This document shows, one piece after another, positions 14,467-20,035 of a DNA stretch of 42,768 bases; position 1 is the first letter of the stretch, and every line of letters starts with the position of its first letter. The position numbers and the translations under genes are program-made. The stretch is taken from NCBI GenBank assembly GCA_938002815.1, contig CALKZT010000037.1:1-42768 (forward strand), in the 5' to 3' direction. The stretch is from an uncultured bacterium. GTDB taxonomy: Bacteria > Desulfobacterota > DSM-4660 > Desulfatiglandales > CALKZT01. The notes under the pieces were generated by a model. The model ran no database searches. It worked only from the letters and a program-made list of their open reading frames with translations, and was not told where the DNA came from.

Positions 14467-14640
14467 TTACCACCAGGTGACTACTTTATCCACCTCAAAG
14501 ACAAGATCCAGCAGTTTACCGTAATCTACATCTTCACCGAAAAGTTTAAACTCAACGACCTGGTTTCCCTCAGCCAACTTTTTTGCCAGGACCTTTGTGG
14601 TCTCATCTGGCTCACTCTTATAAATATAGAGCAGCTTCAC
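14467..14640 (-). CDS. 57-aa protein ending the YeeE-TusA-DsrE operon (not in ORF track)
   Basis: This gene is too short for the supplied ORF track. A GTG at 14640 overlaps the stop of the upstream DsrE-like gene (GTGA) and sits six bases after a strong GGAGG ribosome-binding site. The product begins [20 protein letters not shown] and ends VDKVVTWW. It starts with a short hydrophobic strand, then alternating helix-like and strand-like segments, and has no cysteine. The size and the ending recall TusB/DsrH-like or partial DsrE-fold proteins, but I cannot assign it. It is followed by the operon terminator. The gene model is well supported by spacing and coupling; the function is unknown. Confidence 0.75.
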
Positions 14641-14939
14641 CTGGAACCTCCAAAGGGTATCACGAGGTCCATCTCCCTTAACTTCTCGCCCATCTCCTCA
14701 AGGCTCAAATACTTGAACCCGTGTCTCTCTACATTCTCTTTGTTGTTGGAAAAGAATTCACACTCCAAATCCAAGAGCCAGTCAAGGTTCTCCCTGTACT
14801 GCTCTGTCATATCCACCTCCACATCTATCACGAACATATAAGAGTAAAGGTTCTCCACGGCAAGCCCTAAGGTAGACCTAGAACCTTCCCAGAGATCTTC
14901 CTTTCGCCTGATCAAAAAAGCCACCTTTTTTACTTCCAT
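14637..14939 (-). CDS. DsrE-like protein, second of a pair
   Basis: About 100 aa with a DsrE/DsrF-like layout: an N-terminal strand ([12 protein letters not shown]), a helix ([22 protein letters not shown]), and a C-terminal segment ending in a strand ([12 protein letters not shown]). The only cysteine is in LECEFF, so it does not show the classical DsrE active cysteine clearly. A role in cytoplasmic sulfur transfer is inferred from its neighbours TusA and YeeE. The ATG at 14939 is preferred over the TTG at 14942 because GAGGG lies six bases upstream. Its 3' end overlaps the 57-aa gene by four bases. Confidence 0.7.
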
Positions 14940-14948
14940 CAAAATCCC

Positions 14949-15254
14949 TCACAGGCTTATATATCTGTCACACTCTTCTATGATCTCTAAATGCCTTGCT
15001 TGTGTTGCAAAGTCCTTATCGGCTATGACCTTGACAGGCCGCTTGAGTCCATGGCTTTCAAAACCCACATTACATAGGGCTATATGCCCGAGCCCCTCTA
15101 ACTCCGAAAACCTGATATCCTGGGTCAAAAGCACACCCCTATGTGTCAAAAAGACCTTCGATTCGATGCCCTTTTCCTTGGCTGCCTTGAGTATCCCTAT
15201 TAGTTTGTCCAGGTGTTTGTCGGAGCTCACGAATATTCCCAATTTCTTTCCCAT
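14949..15254 (-). CDS. DsrE/DsrF-like sulfur-relay protein
   Basis: 101 aa. The start KKLGIFVSSDKHLDKLIGILKAAKEKG fits the beta-alpha Rossmann-like DsrE fold, followed by KVFLTHRGVLL, a strand ending IALCNVGF with a cysteine near residue 61, and a C-terminal EECDRYISL with a second cysteine. DsrE-family proteins carry persulfide sulfur between partners such as TusA. It sits seven bases after tusA and just before a second DsrE-like gene. Fold assignment is by pattern, not a search. Confidence 0.75.
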   Translation of the reverse strand: MGKKLGIFVSSDKHLDKLIGILKAAKEKGIESKVFLTHRGVLLTQDIRFSELEGLGHIALCNVGFESHGLKRPVKVIADKDFATQARHLEIIEECDRYISL

Positions 15255-15261
15255 AGTACCC

Positions 15262-15501
15262 TCATTTCACCCTTATGTAAAACCTGGTAAAACCTTGATC
15301 GTCTTTGTGGCCAAGGTATTCATGGCCTGCCCGCTTGGCAAAGGAGGGCATGTCGTTCTTGGTCCCAGGGTCTGTTCCCAAGACCTCAAGGACCTCCCCT
15401 GATTTCATCTTCTCAATGGCCTTCTTTGTCTTAAGAATAGGCATAGGGCAGCTCAGCCCCCTTGCATCAAGGGTTTGATCAGGTTTTATGTCTTCCAGCA
15501 T
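15262..15501 (-). CDS. tusA: TusA-family sulfurtransferase
   Basis: 79 aa, the normal TusA length. The signature LDARGLSCPMPILKTKKAI contains the CPxP motif with the persulfide-carrying Cys18, followed by the second helix and the GTDPGTKNDMPSFAKRAGHE segment typical of the family. It acts as a cytoplasmic sulfur carrier. It lies between a YeeE/YedE transporter (21 bases upstream) and two DsrE-like genes, a known grouping for thiosulfate or sulfide-sulfur uptake and trafficking. A strong AGGAGG lies seven bases before the ATG. Confidence 0.95.
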   Translation of the reverse strand: MLEDIKPDQTLDARGLSCPMPILKTKKAIEKMKSGEVLEVLGTDPGTKNDMPSFAKRAGHEYLGHKDDQGFTRFYIRVK

Positions 15502-15522: not shown

Positions 15523-16707
15523 TTAAGGTTCAACCAAAAACCTTTCGGTCCTCTCATTCCACATAGCTACAACCATGTATAAGAGGAAGAAGAGCAATAA
15601 CAAAACCACACTCCAAAAGTAACCAATGTAACTGGGCAAAAAGACCGAAGCGCCCATGAATTTTGTAACCCCCTCAGAAGAGTTAATCCAGTTCTCAAAG
15701 GGAGAGGTCGTAAGGCAGAAGCATAGCACTGCGAGCATAAGTTTTACCTGACCTTCCCCTGCCCTCCAGACAGAACCTGAACCGCACCCTCCTGCTATGA
15801 GCATGCCAAAACCGAATATAATCCCTCCTACCAGTGCACCAAACCAGAAGGCCTGGGGGACATAAACAGCTTCTCCCCGAAGTCCTGTCCATTTTAGGGC
15901 AGCAAAACCCAATATGGAGATGATTAAACCAAAGGTAATCCCTTTTGGGATCTCTGCCTCTGTTGTCATAAAGGGATCCCTAAATCCCCTCACAAAACAA
16001 AACCGGGCACGCTGAATGGTTACCCCAAAGGCGACACCAAAGAGAAGTAAGACCCCCTCCCTTGTGAGGGCCTCTTGTGCATAGAAATAGGCCACCAGAA
16101 TGGAGGCCAGGAGCACCAAAGCACCCAGGTACGGCTGTACAGCCTTGGAATTAGGTCGGGCATCCCCAGAAACCACAGGACCTGAGCCTCCCCCCGTTGG
16201 TATATGCTCCAGTTCCCAATAGAGGTACTTGAGTCCCAAAAGGGCACCTATTAAAAGGCCGGCCATCATCAGGGGTCCACTTAAAGAGAGGGCAGAGGTG
16301 GCTGAAAAGAATCCCCCCACATTGCAGCCCCCTGCCATGGCAGAGCCAATACCCATAAGAGATCCGCCAACTATTCCTTTCAAAAGCTCCCAAGCAGGAG
16401 CAACCCTAATCCCAAATTCCTTCGACATCAGACTTGAACCAAAGGCGCCCCAAAGTAAACCCAGTGTGAGGAGTGAATTGGTGGAGGTAAAGAGCGGCTC
16501 TGGGCGACTCTTGTAGATCCCTATGGCATAATAGATCCAGTCTCCCCAGTTCTTTAGCCCTCCGGCCACCCCCCAAGGCCTTGCCCACGCAAAGCAAAGT
16601 ACACTCAAGATTCCCAATATCACACCTGCCAGCCACACAGGCCAGTTTTGATAAAATAGCTTGGAGTAGCCCTCCCTCAATAGAGCCTTAAGTTCACTCT
16701 CGGCCAT
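15523..16707 (-). CDS. YeeE/YedE-family sulfur transporter (TsuA-like)
   Basis: 394-aa polytopic inner-membrane protein with many hydrophobic segments in two homologous halves. Each half carries the family motif AGGCNVGG (Cys128) or AGGCGSGS (Cys309); a further cysteine at 237 lies in RARFCFVRG. In the thiosulfate transporter TsuA/YeeE, pore cysteines pass thiosulfate by transient S-S hydrogen-bond contacts, and those positions appear present here. Thiosulfate or another sulfane-sulfur compound is the likely substrate. It is ten bases after the periplasmic TPR gene and directly before tusA, which fits a path from periplasm through the membrane to a cytoplasmic sulfur carrier. Confidence 0.92.
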   Translation of the reverse strand: MAESELKALLREGYSKLFYQNWPVWLAGVILGILSVLCFAWARPWGVAGGLKNWGDWIYYAIGIYKSRPEPLFTSTNSLLTLGLLWGAFGSSLMSKEFGIRVAPAWELLKGIVGGSLMGIGSAMAGGCNVGGFFSATSALSLSGPLMMAGLLIGALLGLKYLYWELEHIPTGGGSGPVVSGDARPNSKAVQPYLGALVLLASILVAYFYAQEALTREGVLLLFGVAFGVTIQRARFCFVRGFRDPFMTTEAEIPKGITFGLIISILGFAALKWTGLRGEAVYVPQAFWFGALVGGIIFGFGMLIAGGCGSGSVWRAGEGQVKLMLAVLCFCLTTSPFENWINSSEGVTKFMGASVFLPSYIGYFWSVVLLLLFFLLYMVVAMWNERTERFLVEP

Positions 16708-16716
16708 GGGTCCCCC

Positions 16717-17160
16717 CTAACAACCCTCATCGTGCATGATCTTGAACTCTGTCTTGGGTTCTTCTCTCTTTTGAACCTCTTTCTTGGGTTCTGGCATGAC
16801 TGGCACTGTGGGAGTACTAGAGACTCCCCCAGAGGATGCCTTCTCCTCAGGAATTTGAACCTCCGAGGAGGCCAAGAGATCTACCTGCTTTTCTACCTTT
16901 TTGCCCAGGGCCATTATGGAAGAGATATCGTAGAATGTCCAAGCTGTCTTAGAGGTGGGATCTGCCTCTATTGCCTTTCTGAAAAAGGCCTTGGCATCCT
17001 CATACTTGCCCCTCAGGTATGCCTCCTTTCCGAAACGCATCATCTTCTCAAAGGTCTTCTTATCAGGTACCTGCGATATCTGCCCCTGAGCCGATGCCAA
17101 AAATGCAAGGGACACTGCCAGAGCCAGGACAATCAAGATGCACAAAAAAAGCCTCTTCAT
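16717..17160 (-). CDS. Periplasmic TPR-like protein with a single C-terminal cysteine
   Basis: 147 aa. It has a clear signal peptide (about 1-24, ending ASA), a helical TPR-like pair (about 36-75: MRFGKEAYLRGKYEDAKAFFRKAIEADP) and then a Pro/Glu/Lys/Ser-rich linker (about 95-140). The last residue is a cysteine (MHDEGC, then stop), the only cysteine in the predicted mature protein. A flexible tail ending in Cys recalls the swinging arm of DsrC, but there is no sequence similarity to that family. An AGGAGGT lies six bases before the ATG. It sits directly upstream of the YeeE-type transporter, so presenting a sulfur compound to it is a reasonable guess. No known family was recognised. Confidence 0.8.
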   Translation of the reverse strand: MKRLFLCILIVLALAVSLAFLASAQGQISQVPDKKTFEKMMRFGKEAYLRGKYEDAKAFFRKAIEADPTSKTAWTFYDISSIMALGKKVEKQVDLLASSEVQIPEEKASSGGVSSTPTVPVMPEPKKEVQKREEPKTEFKIMHDEGC

Positions 17161-17170
17161 AGGCCACCTC

Positions 17171-18559
17171 CTAATTCTTTTTGGTCTTCACCACTGCATA
17201 AAAGGTGCTCTTACCCCTTTTGATCAGAAGGAGCAAGCCCTCTTCCCCAGAACTTTCCTTCAAGATCTTCTTGAGATCTGCCACACTGGAGACAGGCTTT
17301 CTGTTGGCCTCCTTTATGAGATCCCCTGCCCTCAAACCCGCATCTTCTGCAGGGCTTCCAGCTTCCACAGAGGATATCAAAACTCCATCTTCTGAACCTG
17401 AAAGACCAAAGTGCTTCCTCAGTTCTGGAGTGAGATCCTGGAATGAAAGACCAAAGAATGTCTCTTCCCTCTTGGGCTCCTGAGGGGCCCTTTCTGCGGT
17501 TTCGGGCATTTCACCTAAATTTACCTCTATAACCTTAGTCTTACCTGCCCTAACAACCGTTAGAGATATTCGGCTCCCTGGTTTGCTCTGGGCCACAAGC
17601 CTGCTCAAGGTCCTGGCATCTTTCACAGGGGTATCATTAAACCTTGTCACTACATCCCCCCTCTTCAGACCTGCCTTTTCTGCAGGGGTATCCGGCATCA
17701 CCTCAGATATGAGAACCCCTTCTTCCGAAGAGAGCTTGAAGGACTTGGCCAGTTCTGGGGTAACATCCTGTATCATCACCCCGAGCCAACCCCTTATTAC
17801 CTTTCCCTCTTTTAGCTGGGGCAATAGGCTCTTGATGAGATTTATGGGTATGGCAAAGCCTATTCCTTGGCCTTGGGCTATTATGGCGGTATTGATACCG
17901 ACCACCTCACCATTCATATTAAAGAGTGGCCCACCACTGTTTCCTGGATTTATGGCTGCATCTGTCTGCAAAAAATCGTCATAGGGACCAGCTCCAATTA
18001 CCCTCCCCTTTGCACTTATAATCCCCAAAGTCACCGTGTGTCCCAGACCAAAGGGATTCCCCACTGCCATTACCCAATCCCCCACCTTCACCTTATCGGA
18101 ATCCCCCAGCTTTGCAGGTTTAGGGAAGTCCTTAATTGCATCTACCTTTAATAGGGCCACATCTGTTTTAGGGTCCCTCCCAATCACCTTGGCATCGTAT
18201 TCCTTGCCATCATCCAGTTTCACCTTTATCTCCGTAGCCTTTTCCACCACGTGGTTGTTGGTAAGTACATAGCCATCTTCGCTTATTATGACACCAGAAC
18301 CCAGGGCCTGGGTCTTCATGGGCCTATCCCCAAAAAACCTCTTGAAAAATTCCTCCCCGAAAAAGTCCCTAAAAGGTCCCTCTGGTCCAAAAAAGGGCTC
18401 TAAGGGATTGGTTTTCACTACCTGGGTAGTAAATAGATTAACCACACAATGCTTTACCTTCTCCACCAAGGGTGCCATCGAAGGGGGTTCTTCTCCAAAG
18501 GAACTCCCCACAAAGAGTAAGATTCCCACAACTGTGAGTATACTAAGACGCCTGGACAT
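17171..18559 (-). CDS. Periplasmic serine endoprotease, HtrA/DegP family (first of tandem pair by position)
   Basis: 462 aa. It has a signal peptide (about 1-22), a trypsin-like protease domain with an intact triad at His103 (TNNHVV), Asp133 (DPKTDVAL) and Ser208 (NPGNSGGPL), and two PDZ domains (about 245-335 and 375-460). It should degrade or refold damaged envelope proteins as an oligomer. A strong AAGGAGG lies nine bases before the ATG. It is transcribed after a second HtrA gene (72-base gap) and before the TPR-YeeE-TusA genes (10-base gap). Two proteases in one operon with sulfur-handling genes may mean envelope stress from reactive sulfur, which is inference. Confidence 0.96.
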   Translation of the reverse strand: MSRRLSILTVVGILLFVGSSFGEEPPSMAPLVEKVKHCVVNLFTTQVVKTNPLEPFFGPEGPFRDFFGEEFFKRFFGDRPMKTQALGSGVIISEDGYVLTNNHVVEKATEIKVKLDDGKEYDAKVIGRDPKTDVALLKVDAIKDFPKPAKLGDSDKVKVGDWVMAVGNPFGLGHTVTLGIISAKGRVIGAGPYDDFLQTDAAINPGNSGGPLFNMNGEVVGINTAIIAQGQGIGFAIPINLIKSLLPQLKEGKVIRGWLGVMIQDVTPELAKSFKLSSEEGVLISEVMPDTPAEKAGLKRGDVVTRFNDTPVKDARTLSRLVAQSKPGSRISLTVVRAGKTKVIEVNLGEMPETAERAPQEPKREETFFGLSFQDLTPELRKHFGLSGSEDGVLISSVEAGSPAEDAGLRAGDLIKEANRKPVSSVADLKKILKESSGEEGLLLLIKRGKSTFYAVVKTKKN

Positions 18560-18631: not shown

Positions 18632-20035
18632 TCAATAGATTCTTACCTGGACATAACCTTTTTTCCCTGTTCTGTGATCCACTGCCAAAAAGGTAGCGAT
18701 TGTACCTTGGGGCATCTGATTTAGGATGGATGCCAGATCCGATATGGATTTGATCTGGGTACCGTTTACTTCAAGGAGTATGTCCCCAATCTCCAAGCCT
18801 GCAAGGGCAAAGGGTCCTTTGGGATCCAGGGAGCAGATCACAAGCCCTGTCCCCTTAAAAATCCCATGGTTTTTTCCCTCCTCAGGCTTGATGGGTCTGA
18901 GGTCCGCACCTAATTTGCTCCTCAGGAGGGCCAAGCAATTCTCCACTGAGTGATCTTGGCTTCCCACCTGCACGGGCACGGTAATCAGATTGCCGTCCCT
19001 CCATACCAACAAGTTTGTGGTCTTCCCAGGTTCAATGAGCGCTACCAGGCTTTTAAGCTCTGAACTATTTTTCACCCTTTTTTCGCCCAGACTTTGTATG
19101 ATATCACCCTTTTTGAGGCCTGATTTCTGTGCAGGGGATTCCTCCTCCACCCCTGTAACTATGCATCCAAAGGCCTCCTTCAGACCAAACCTCTTGGCCA
19201 GCTCTGGGCTCAGATCTTGCAAGGTGGCCCCAATCCATCCCCTGACCACCTTCCCATTTTTGATCAATTGATTGGCCACATAAGATGCCATATTGCTGGG
19301 GATAGCAAAACCAATACCTTCATACCCTCCTGATTGAGAAACTATTGCCGTATTGATCCCGATTACCTCTCCTTTGAGATTTAGAAGGGGGCCTCCGCTA
19401 TTGCCTGGATTAATGGCTGCATCGGTCTGCAAGAAATCCTGGTAGCTATTGGGATCCAATATGCCTCTGCGGTGTTTGGCGCTGATTATCCCCTGGGTCA
19501 CAGTATGGTCAAGCCCCCTTGGGTGTCCCACAGCCACCACCCATTCCCCCACCTCAACACCATCCGAGTCCCCGAAGGTAAGGTAGGGGAACTTACCCCC
19601 TTCTTTGATCCTGAGCACTGCAAGATCGGTCTTGGGTTCTGCCCCGACGAAGGTCACCGAAAACCTCCTTTCGTCTGCCAGGAGGACCTCTATCTCAGTG
19701 GCACCTGCTATTACGTGGTAGTTTGTAATGATATGCCCCCTTTCGTCTATGAGAAAACCTGTACCGATCCCTTTCATAACCCTCTCGAACCTCTCAGGGA
19801 GATCTGGGATGTCAAAAAAGAACCTAAAAAAAGGATCATTCTTGAAAGGGAGCCAGGGATTGGGATAGCTGGTCCTGTGTATTACGTCAATGTGTACCAC
19901 AGCCGGAATGGCCCCCTTTGCCACCCTCCTTATGGCATTTGTTAGGTCCTCCTCCCCCTTTGCCAATACCCCATTGGCCCAGATGCCTGTTACTAAAAGC
20001 CCAAGAAAGGGTAGGATAAGACCTATTCTATGCAT
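18632..20035 (-). CDS. Periplasmic serine endoprotease, HtrA/DegP family (upstream member of tandem pair)
   Basis: 467 aa with signal peptide (about 1-25), protease domain with His107 (TNYHVI), Asp137 (EPKTDLAV) and Ser213 (NPGNSGGPL), and two PDZ domains (about 255-345 and 375-465). It is a clear but divergent paralog of the next gene; the second PDZ is preceded by a different linker (ENCLALLRSKLGADLRP). The start lies inside the end of the upstream Cys-rich gene (eight-base overlap), so translation is probably coupled. The enzyme should be active in periplasmic quality control. DegP, DegQ or DegS type cannot be settled here. Confidence 0.95.
   Translation of the reverse strand: MHRIGLILPFLGLLVTGIWANGVLAKGEEDLTNAIRRVAKGAIPAVVHIDVIHRTSYPNPWLPFKNDPFFRFFFDIPDLPERFERVMKGIGTGFLIDERGHIITNYHVIAGATEIEVLLADERRFSVTFVGAEPKTDLAVLRIKEGGKFPYLTFGDSDGVEVGEWVVAVGHPRGLDHTVTQGIISAKHRRGILDPNSYQDFLQTDAAINPGNSGGPLLNLKGEVIGINTAIVSQSGGYEGIGFAIPSNMASYVANQLIKNGKVVRGWIGATLQDLSPELAKRFGLKEAFGCIVTGVEEESPAQKSGLKKGDIIQSLGEKRVKNSSELKSLVALIEPGKTTNLLVWRDGNLITVPVQVGSQDHSVENCLALLRSKLGADLRPIKPEEGKNHGIFKGTGLVICSLDPKGPFALAGLEIGDILLEVNGTQIKSISDLASILNQMPQGTIATFLAVDHRTGKKGYVQVRIY

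Follow-up and report, generated by a model that had tools for sequence, protein, structure and literature searches.

SoxYZ, a periplasmic protein, carries sulfur on one cysteine of a flexible C-terminal end (the GGCGG arm of SoxY), and DsrC uses a C-terminal cysteine arm to carry sulfur in Dsr metabolism. The sulfur bound to SoxYZ is discussed in PMC11582611, where the presentation of sulfur from the periplasm to the YeeE-like SoxT is left as a question; in the same paper, the DsbA-like Hden_0679, encoded beside soxT1A in Hyphomicrobium denitrificans and displaying a very C-terminal cysteine motif, is proposed to help in sulfur presentation. Concerning the PmpAB-type permeases, PMC10812762 reports the import of zero-valent sulfur by YedE1E2, for which the conserved cysteines of the transporter are required. 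A YeeE/YedE permease is also part of the YTD cluster. Sulfur disproportionators are the organisms for which this cluster was described (PMC12998232, PMC9751629, PMC8780430); in 2026 it received a new interpretation, as yeeE-tusA-dsrEFH type II, and sulfur transfer from TusA to DsrE and on to DsrC was demonstrated in vitro (PMC13293266). The published gene list comprises yedE, tusA, dsrE and 2-3 conserved hypotheticals (PMC12998232, PMC13293266). A TPR protein is unmentioned in the descriptions of the cluster consulted here, one of which names tetratricopeptide proteins only outside its YTD passages, and our literature search found nothing naming a tetratricopeptide or C-terminal-cysteine protein together with YeeE.

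The window, i.e. the whole stretch of 42,768 nucleotides analysed here, carries a gene, for which the name tprC is proposed, coding for a secreted TPR-like protein whose last residue is a cysteine. Like SoxYZ, TprC is a predicted periplasmic protein with a flexible, cysteine-bearing C-terminal end, but its cysteine is the last residue of a DEGC terminus, its head is TPR-like instead of a SoxY domain, and its genetic linkage is with yeeE and dsrEFH-II, not with soxXAB; membership of the SoxY family was rejected, as there was no Pfam SoxY match and the terminus reads HDEGC, not GGCGG. The C-terminal cysteine arm shared with DsrC is an analogy, not a kinship: DsrC is cytoplasmic, and no Pfam DsrC match was obtained for TprC. 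With Hden_0679, TprC has in common that it is a periplasmic thiol protein encoded next to a YeeE-family importer, but the former displays a thioredoxin fold and a CXXC motif, while TprC of the window has a single terminal cysteine on a TPR-like protein. The gene order downstream of tprC is identical to that of the YTD cluster, which the literature places in the context of sulfur disproportionation or sulfur oxidation (PMC12998232, PMC13293266); the difference is tprC itself, which is absent from the published gene list. Finally, relatives of PmpAB/YedE1E2, from the same permease superfamily, were found here with a DEGC tail or with rhodanese domains at their periplasmic end, whereas YedE1 and YedE2 have four predicted TM helices each, and the passages describing them make no mention of a tail (PMC10812762).

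The TprC protein and its terminus

The tprC gene (16717..17160, minus strand, 147 aa) is a genuine gene by sequence inspection, with an ATG start and a good Shine-Dalgarno sequence. An earlier note, written from the letters of the sequence, had described its product as a signal peptide followed by TPR-like helices, a Pro/Glu/Lys-rich linker and HDEGC before the stop. This architecture was largely recovered. The signal peptide covers residues 1-24 (17089..17160), with cleavage placed by inspection at about ASA/Q, and corresponds to a helix at residues 2-22 of the AlphaFold model (32 homologs). It is followed by a three-helix TPR-like unit, residues 34-95 (16876..17061), whose helices 34-49, 53-66 and 71-95 all have a pLDDT above 95. 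As for the TPR assignment, the helices are thus confident but the Pfam support is weak: the best match is TPR_2, with one repeat at 22.4 bits, below the curated cut-off of 27 bits, although TPR_2 matches with E<=0.01 were obtained for 26 of the 32 homologs. With Foldseek, designed TPRs rank top with a probability of 1.00 but no hit reaches E<=0.001, which amounts to a generic TPR likeness. Residues 96-147 (16720..16875) form an unstructured, Pro/Glu/Lys-rich arm of about 50 residues, alignable at its end alone, i.e. the HDEGC terminus (16720..16734). In the window copy, the only cysteines are residue 7, within the signal peptide, and Cys147.

Homologs of TprC were gathered from relatives, from 32 named genome contigs (several of them identical) and from a phylum sample, the named contigs with tprC belonging to Desulfobacterales, Desulfobacteraceae and Deltaproteobacteria MAGs and to strain NaphS2. 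Weak, unrelated TPR matches aside, the gene is present in 17/60 relatives. Weak matches in G221, G322 and G347 (E 1e-6 to 1e-8) were taken as ordinary TPR proteins, the one inspected, in G347 (L091), having no GC end. In pairwise comparison, the homologs are 30-48% identical to TprC of the window, and no alignment of the linker is possible. The end of the protein is nonetheless nearly constant, as the earlier note had suggested checking: the final residues are DEGC in 42 of the 48 distinct sequences, EEGC in another 5 and GKLP in the last one, so that 47/48 keep the terminal cysteine in the form [DE]EGC. The exception (L090, G106:C136) comes from a genome whose YeeE frame is also split in two pieces (L167). 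At the nucleotide level, the terminal glutamate is encoded by GAA (36) or GAG (11), the glycine by all four of its codons and the cysteine by TGT (28) or TGC (19), followed by any of the three stops; this synonymous variation means that the terminus is kept at the protein level. By comparison, a GC ending was found in only one of about 630 unrelated genes of the fetched loci, and that gene also lies in a YTD locus. The conservation of the terminus is thus more than chance.

The statement that the mature protein has no other cysteine holds for the window but not for the family, as most homologs have a second cysteine in a DKxLC motif near the mature N-terminus, replaced by Phe in TprC of the window and by Ser in a few relatives. 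The terminal cysteine is the better conserved of the two.

Gene neighbourhood and co-occurrence

On the minus strand, the gene order in the window is HtrA, 10 bp, tprC, 9 bp, YeeE/YedE, TusA, DsrE, DsrF-like and DsrH-like, in agreement with the earlier reading of YeeE/YedE and TusA as the next genes. The permease (15523..16707, minus strand, 394 aa) matches Pfam Sulf_transp (1.1e-47) and TsuA of PDB 6leo (8.9e-26). It reaches neither the NCBIfam TsuA cut-off (108.9 vs. 400 bits) nor that of the selenium-linked YedE/FdhT model (139.7 vs. 350 bits); neither identity was therefore retained, and its homology to TsuA is stated through PF04143 and PDB 6leo. Its Cys128, Cys237 and Cys308 are invariant in an alignment of 14 sequences. 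Next come, all on the minus strand, TusA (15262..15501; Pfam TusA 4.5e-28), with Cys18 in a CPMP motif, and three small genes assigned by synteny: DsrE type II (the YTD DsrE; 14949..15254), named by comparison with PMC13293266 and with Cys61 as candidate active residue, a DsrF type II-like protein (a YTD conserved hypothetical; 14637..14942) and a DsrH type II-like protein of 57 aa with a GTG start and a WW end (14467..14640). No match for DsrE or for the DsrF-like protein was returned by the Pfam search. The set of yeeE, tusA, dsrE and two conserved small genes, in the same order in relatives, fits the yeeE-tusA-dsrEFH type II cluster, and the cysteines expected of YTD proteins are present in TusA (Cys18) and DsrE (Cys61).

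Directly upstream of the operon, the window contains two adjacent HtrA/DegP-type proteases (17171-18559 and 18632-20035). An HtrA protease as obligatory partner of TprC was rejected, being absent from the homologous loci annotated.

The usual order in homologous loci is tprC-yeeE-tusA-DsrE-DsrF-DsrH, and in nearly all f4-type loci examined tprC is immediately 5' of yeeE, the gap varying from -7 to 76 bp. Other settings include loci in which yeeE has a thioredoxin reductase-like gene on its 3' side, loci near rhodanese genes and a few where tprC directly precedes tusA. The linkage to yeeE-type genes, on which the earlier note had made its proposal depend, also extends to whole genomes. In a phylum sample of 396 genomes, this type of YeeE accompanies tprC in 17/17 genomes vs. 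52/379 of the others (Fisher 2e-14, phylogeny ignored), and among the relatives (n=61) YeeE is present in 18/18 tprC carriers, one of them as a fragment at a contig end, vs. 1/43 non-carriers, shared ancestry again being ignored. In family f21, tprC lies away from yeeE, which is found elsewhere in the same genomes, and a secreted rhodanese follows directly downstream in 7/7 loci; a secreted tandem rhodanese adjoins tprC in several f4 loci. The genome of the window encodes secreted orthologs of both rhodaneses, the f21-type and the tandem one, as well as DsrA; DsrC was not found in this draft (90.7% complete).

In the loci L035, L037, L040, L041, L051 and L062, where the secreted tandem rhodanese is found beside tprC, its active-site loop contains an in-frame TGA (YCGGPT-TGA-GMSPKSAG; YCGGFR-TGA-VLSPMAAR) whenever both halves were found. 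The ortholog in the genome of the window (L242) has a cysteine at the TGA position (FYCQGVRCVLSP). Judging from these reading frames, the TGA-containing protein is likely a selenocysteine rhodanese.

Complete YTD clusters make up most of the YeeE loci examined in genomes devoid of tprC, and no TPR-Cys homolog was found 5' of yeeE in any of these loci. YeeE therefore works without TprC in many lineages; tprC is not a universal component of the YTD cluster but an accessory that certain lineages have.

Gly-Cys tails on other proteins

A scan for [DE]EGC-stop codons in six genomes was used to find the tail on other proteins. A PmpA-type Sulf_transp permease (PF04143 7.9e-14), in tandem with its PmpB half, carries an F.I..DEGC tail. 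A variable linker followed by F.I..DEGC ends 13/13 close PmpA homologs, whereas distant, shorter homologs end before the tail, and 12 of these 13 genomes are also tprC genomes. The tail comes after an extra, last (sixth) TM helix, and this helix and the loop charges place it in the periplasm; as the AlphaFold model of the tailed PmpA is poor (mean pLDDT 54), only its last two helices and the unstructured tail were used. In one PmpA homolog (L201/L259), three rhodanese domains stand in place of the tail. In the tailed loci (L188-L200, L251-L255), PmpB is upstream, and a related HEAT-repeat-like gene precedes PmpB in three loci examined.

Among the 396 genomes of the phylum sample, the pattern I..[DE]EGC-stop occurs at 48 sites vs. 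about 8 in a reversed control. The substantial ORFs among the loci examined were TprC, the PmpA tail, a small f21 protein and one NifH-like protein, the latter taken as chance; with so few families carrying it, DEGC as a general tag on many exported proteins was ruled out. The small protein, secreted and found in family f21 (L228, L229, L231 and L232), reads NCxIGGExGPGV ... IAPDEGC, and no sulfur genes were seen near it in these four loci.

A comparable arm was found on secreted persulfide dioxygenase (PDO)-rhodaneses. In G037, a secreted protein made of a PDO-like metallo-beta-lactamase and three rhodaneses ends in KKKSAGC, next to PmpB-PmpA-rhodanese. A linker and GC end are present in 11/11 secreted PDO-rhodaneses (L259-L269) vs. 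0/20 cytosolic homologs (Fisher 1.2e-8, phylogeny ignored), and 8 of the 11 are directly upstream of PmpBA. These arms are basic, not acidic, which leaves Gly-Cys as the part in common with TprC. The one GC ending among the background of about 630 genes outside the tail families belongs, as a single case, to a secreted monoheme CxxCH cytochrome c (L146:6886-7257), which ends in KKKKVEGC; its genome (G185) has no tprC, and its gene lies downstream of the YTD cluster.

A candidate sulfur-presenting arm and its alternatives

Our preferred reading, to which we give a probability of roughly 0.6, is that TprC is a periplasmic sulfur-presenting arm for YeeE, with the terminal cysteine as candidate swinging thiol. 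The TPR-like head would dock on a partner, either the periplasmic face of YeeE or a periplasmic rhodanese, and the disordered linker of about 50 residues would bring the C-terminal Asp-Glu-Gly-Cys within reach of an active site or of the entrance to the permease. Periplasmic rhodaneses could load the terminal thiol with sulfane sulfur, as persulfide or polysulfide, which the arm would then offer to the cysteine-lined pore of YeeE (Cys128/Cys237/Cys308); inside, Cys18 of TusA would take over the sulfur and pass it to DsrEFH type II and the Dsr pathway. Two parts of this scheme come from published work: the relay that links TusA, DsrEFH-II and DsrC, and the import of zero-valent sulfur through permeases of the PmpAB type. 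The gene, its secretion signal, arm, terminus, operon and co-occurrence, the rhodanese linkage and the permease-fused tail come from the present analysis. As cargo, sulfane sulfur seems likelier than thiosulfate.

The earlier proposal of a periplasmic swinging-arm carrier or docking protein is thus supported as a candidate role by the terminus and its linkage to yeeE, the PmpA tail, the rhodanese neighbours and the GC arms of the PDO-rhodaneses. Counted against it are the complete YTD clusters without tprC and the one homolog without the terminus (L090), and also the second cysteine of most TprC relatives, with which the terminal one could be a disulfide partner. The latter observation leads to the foremost alternative, a redox tether or gate. 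Here the terminal thiol would be linked reversibly, through a mixed disulfide, to YeeE, to a rhodanese or to the protein's own DKxLC cysteine, and would hold or regulate its partner with no carriage of sulfur. The thioredoxin reductase-like gene of some operons and the frequent protein binding of TPR units would suit such a role. We nevertheless regard it as unlikely, because TprC of the window and several relatives keep the terminal cysteine without the second one, and because neither a tail fused to a permease nor the PDO-rhodanese arms would need a tether.

Clearly less probable is the binding of a metal or selenium species by an acidic cysteine tail, the protein having, for instance, a chaperone or scavenging function in a sulfidic environment. 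The EEEEEEGC endings of some tails, the weak score of YeeE with the selenium-linked YedE/FdhT model and the putative selenoprotein rhodanese adjoining tprC in relatives point in this direction; against them stand the missed YedE/FdhT cut-off, TusA, DsrEFH-II and rhodaneses as neighbours, and the basic PDO arms, in which Gly-Cys is common but not acidity. Slightly more doubtful still is the view of the tail as a C-terminal tag for recognition, sorting or proteolysis, e.g. by the PDZ domains of the neighbouring HtrA, with an incidental cysteine: tags typically take the form of a short, conserved C-terminus and an HtrA gene lies 10 bp upstream of tprC in the window, but none of the homologous loci annotated has one, the tail-bearing proteins mostly share a sulfur theme alone, and Gly-Cys is constant across scaffolds. 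Lastly, that the EGC codons are kept merely as the ribosome-binding site of yeeE, whose ribosome-binding region overlaps the stop region GAGGGTTGTTAGGGGGGACCCATG in the window, was rejected as next to impossible given the variable distance to yeeE, the synonymous variation of codons and stops, and the f21 tprC genes, PmpA and PDO arms without yeeE downstream.

Returning to the sulfur-presenting arm, the tail found on unrelated secreted and membrane sulfur proteins, a permease included, is probably a flexible hook handing sulfur to YeeE-type importers. Whether a linker plus Gly-Cys makes up a general, so far unrecognised periplasmic delivery device for YeeE/YedE/Pmp-type importers, added to scaffolds as unrelated as a TPR-like protein, a PmpA permease and a secreted PDO-rhodanese, with a small secreted protein and a cytochrome c as possible further cases, is a question on which we see the odds as about even. 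The principle of a swinging thiol is already known from SoxY and DsrC, and its form in TprC is possibly general. If true, the device would answer how sulfur is presented from the outside to these importers. The YTD cluster is a leading candidate for microbial sulfur disproportionation, the rival view being sulfur oxidation by sulfate reducers, and a last-residue cysteine encoded in the same operon, together with its permease-fused version, makes sulfur delivery to YeeE directly testable through a single-residue candidate. A linker and GC-stop on secreted proteins would, moreover, serve as a simple signature for other periplasmic sulfur carriers.
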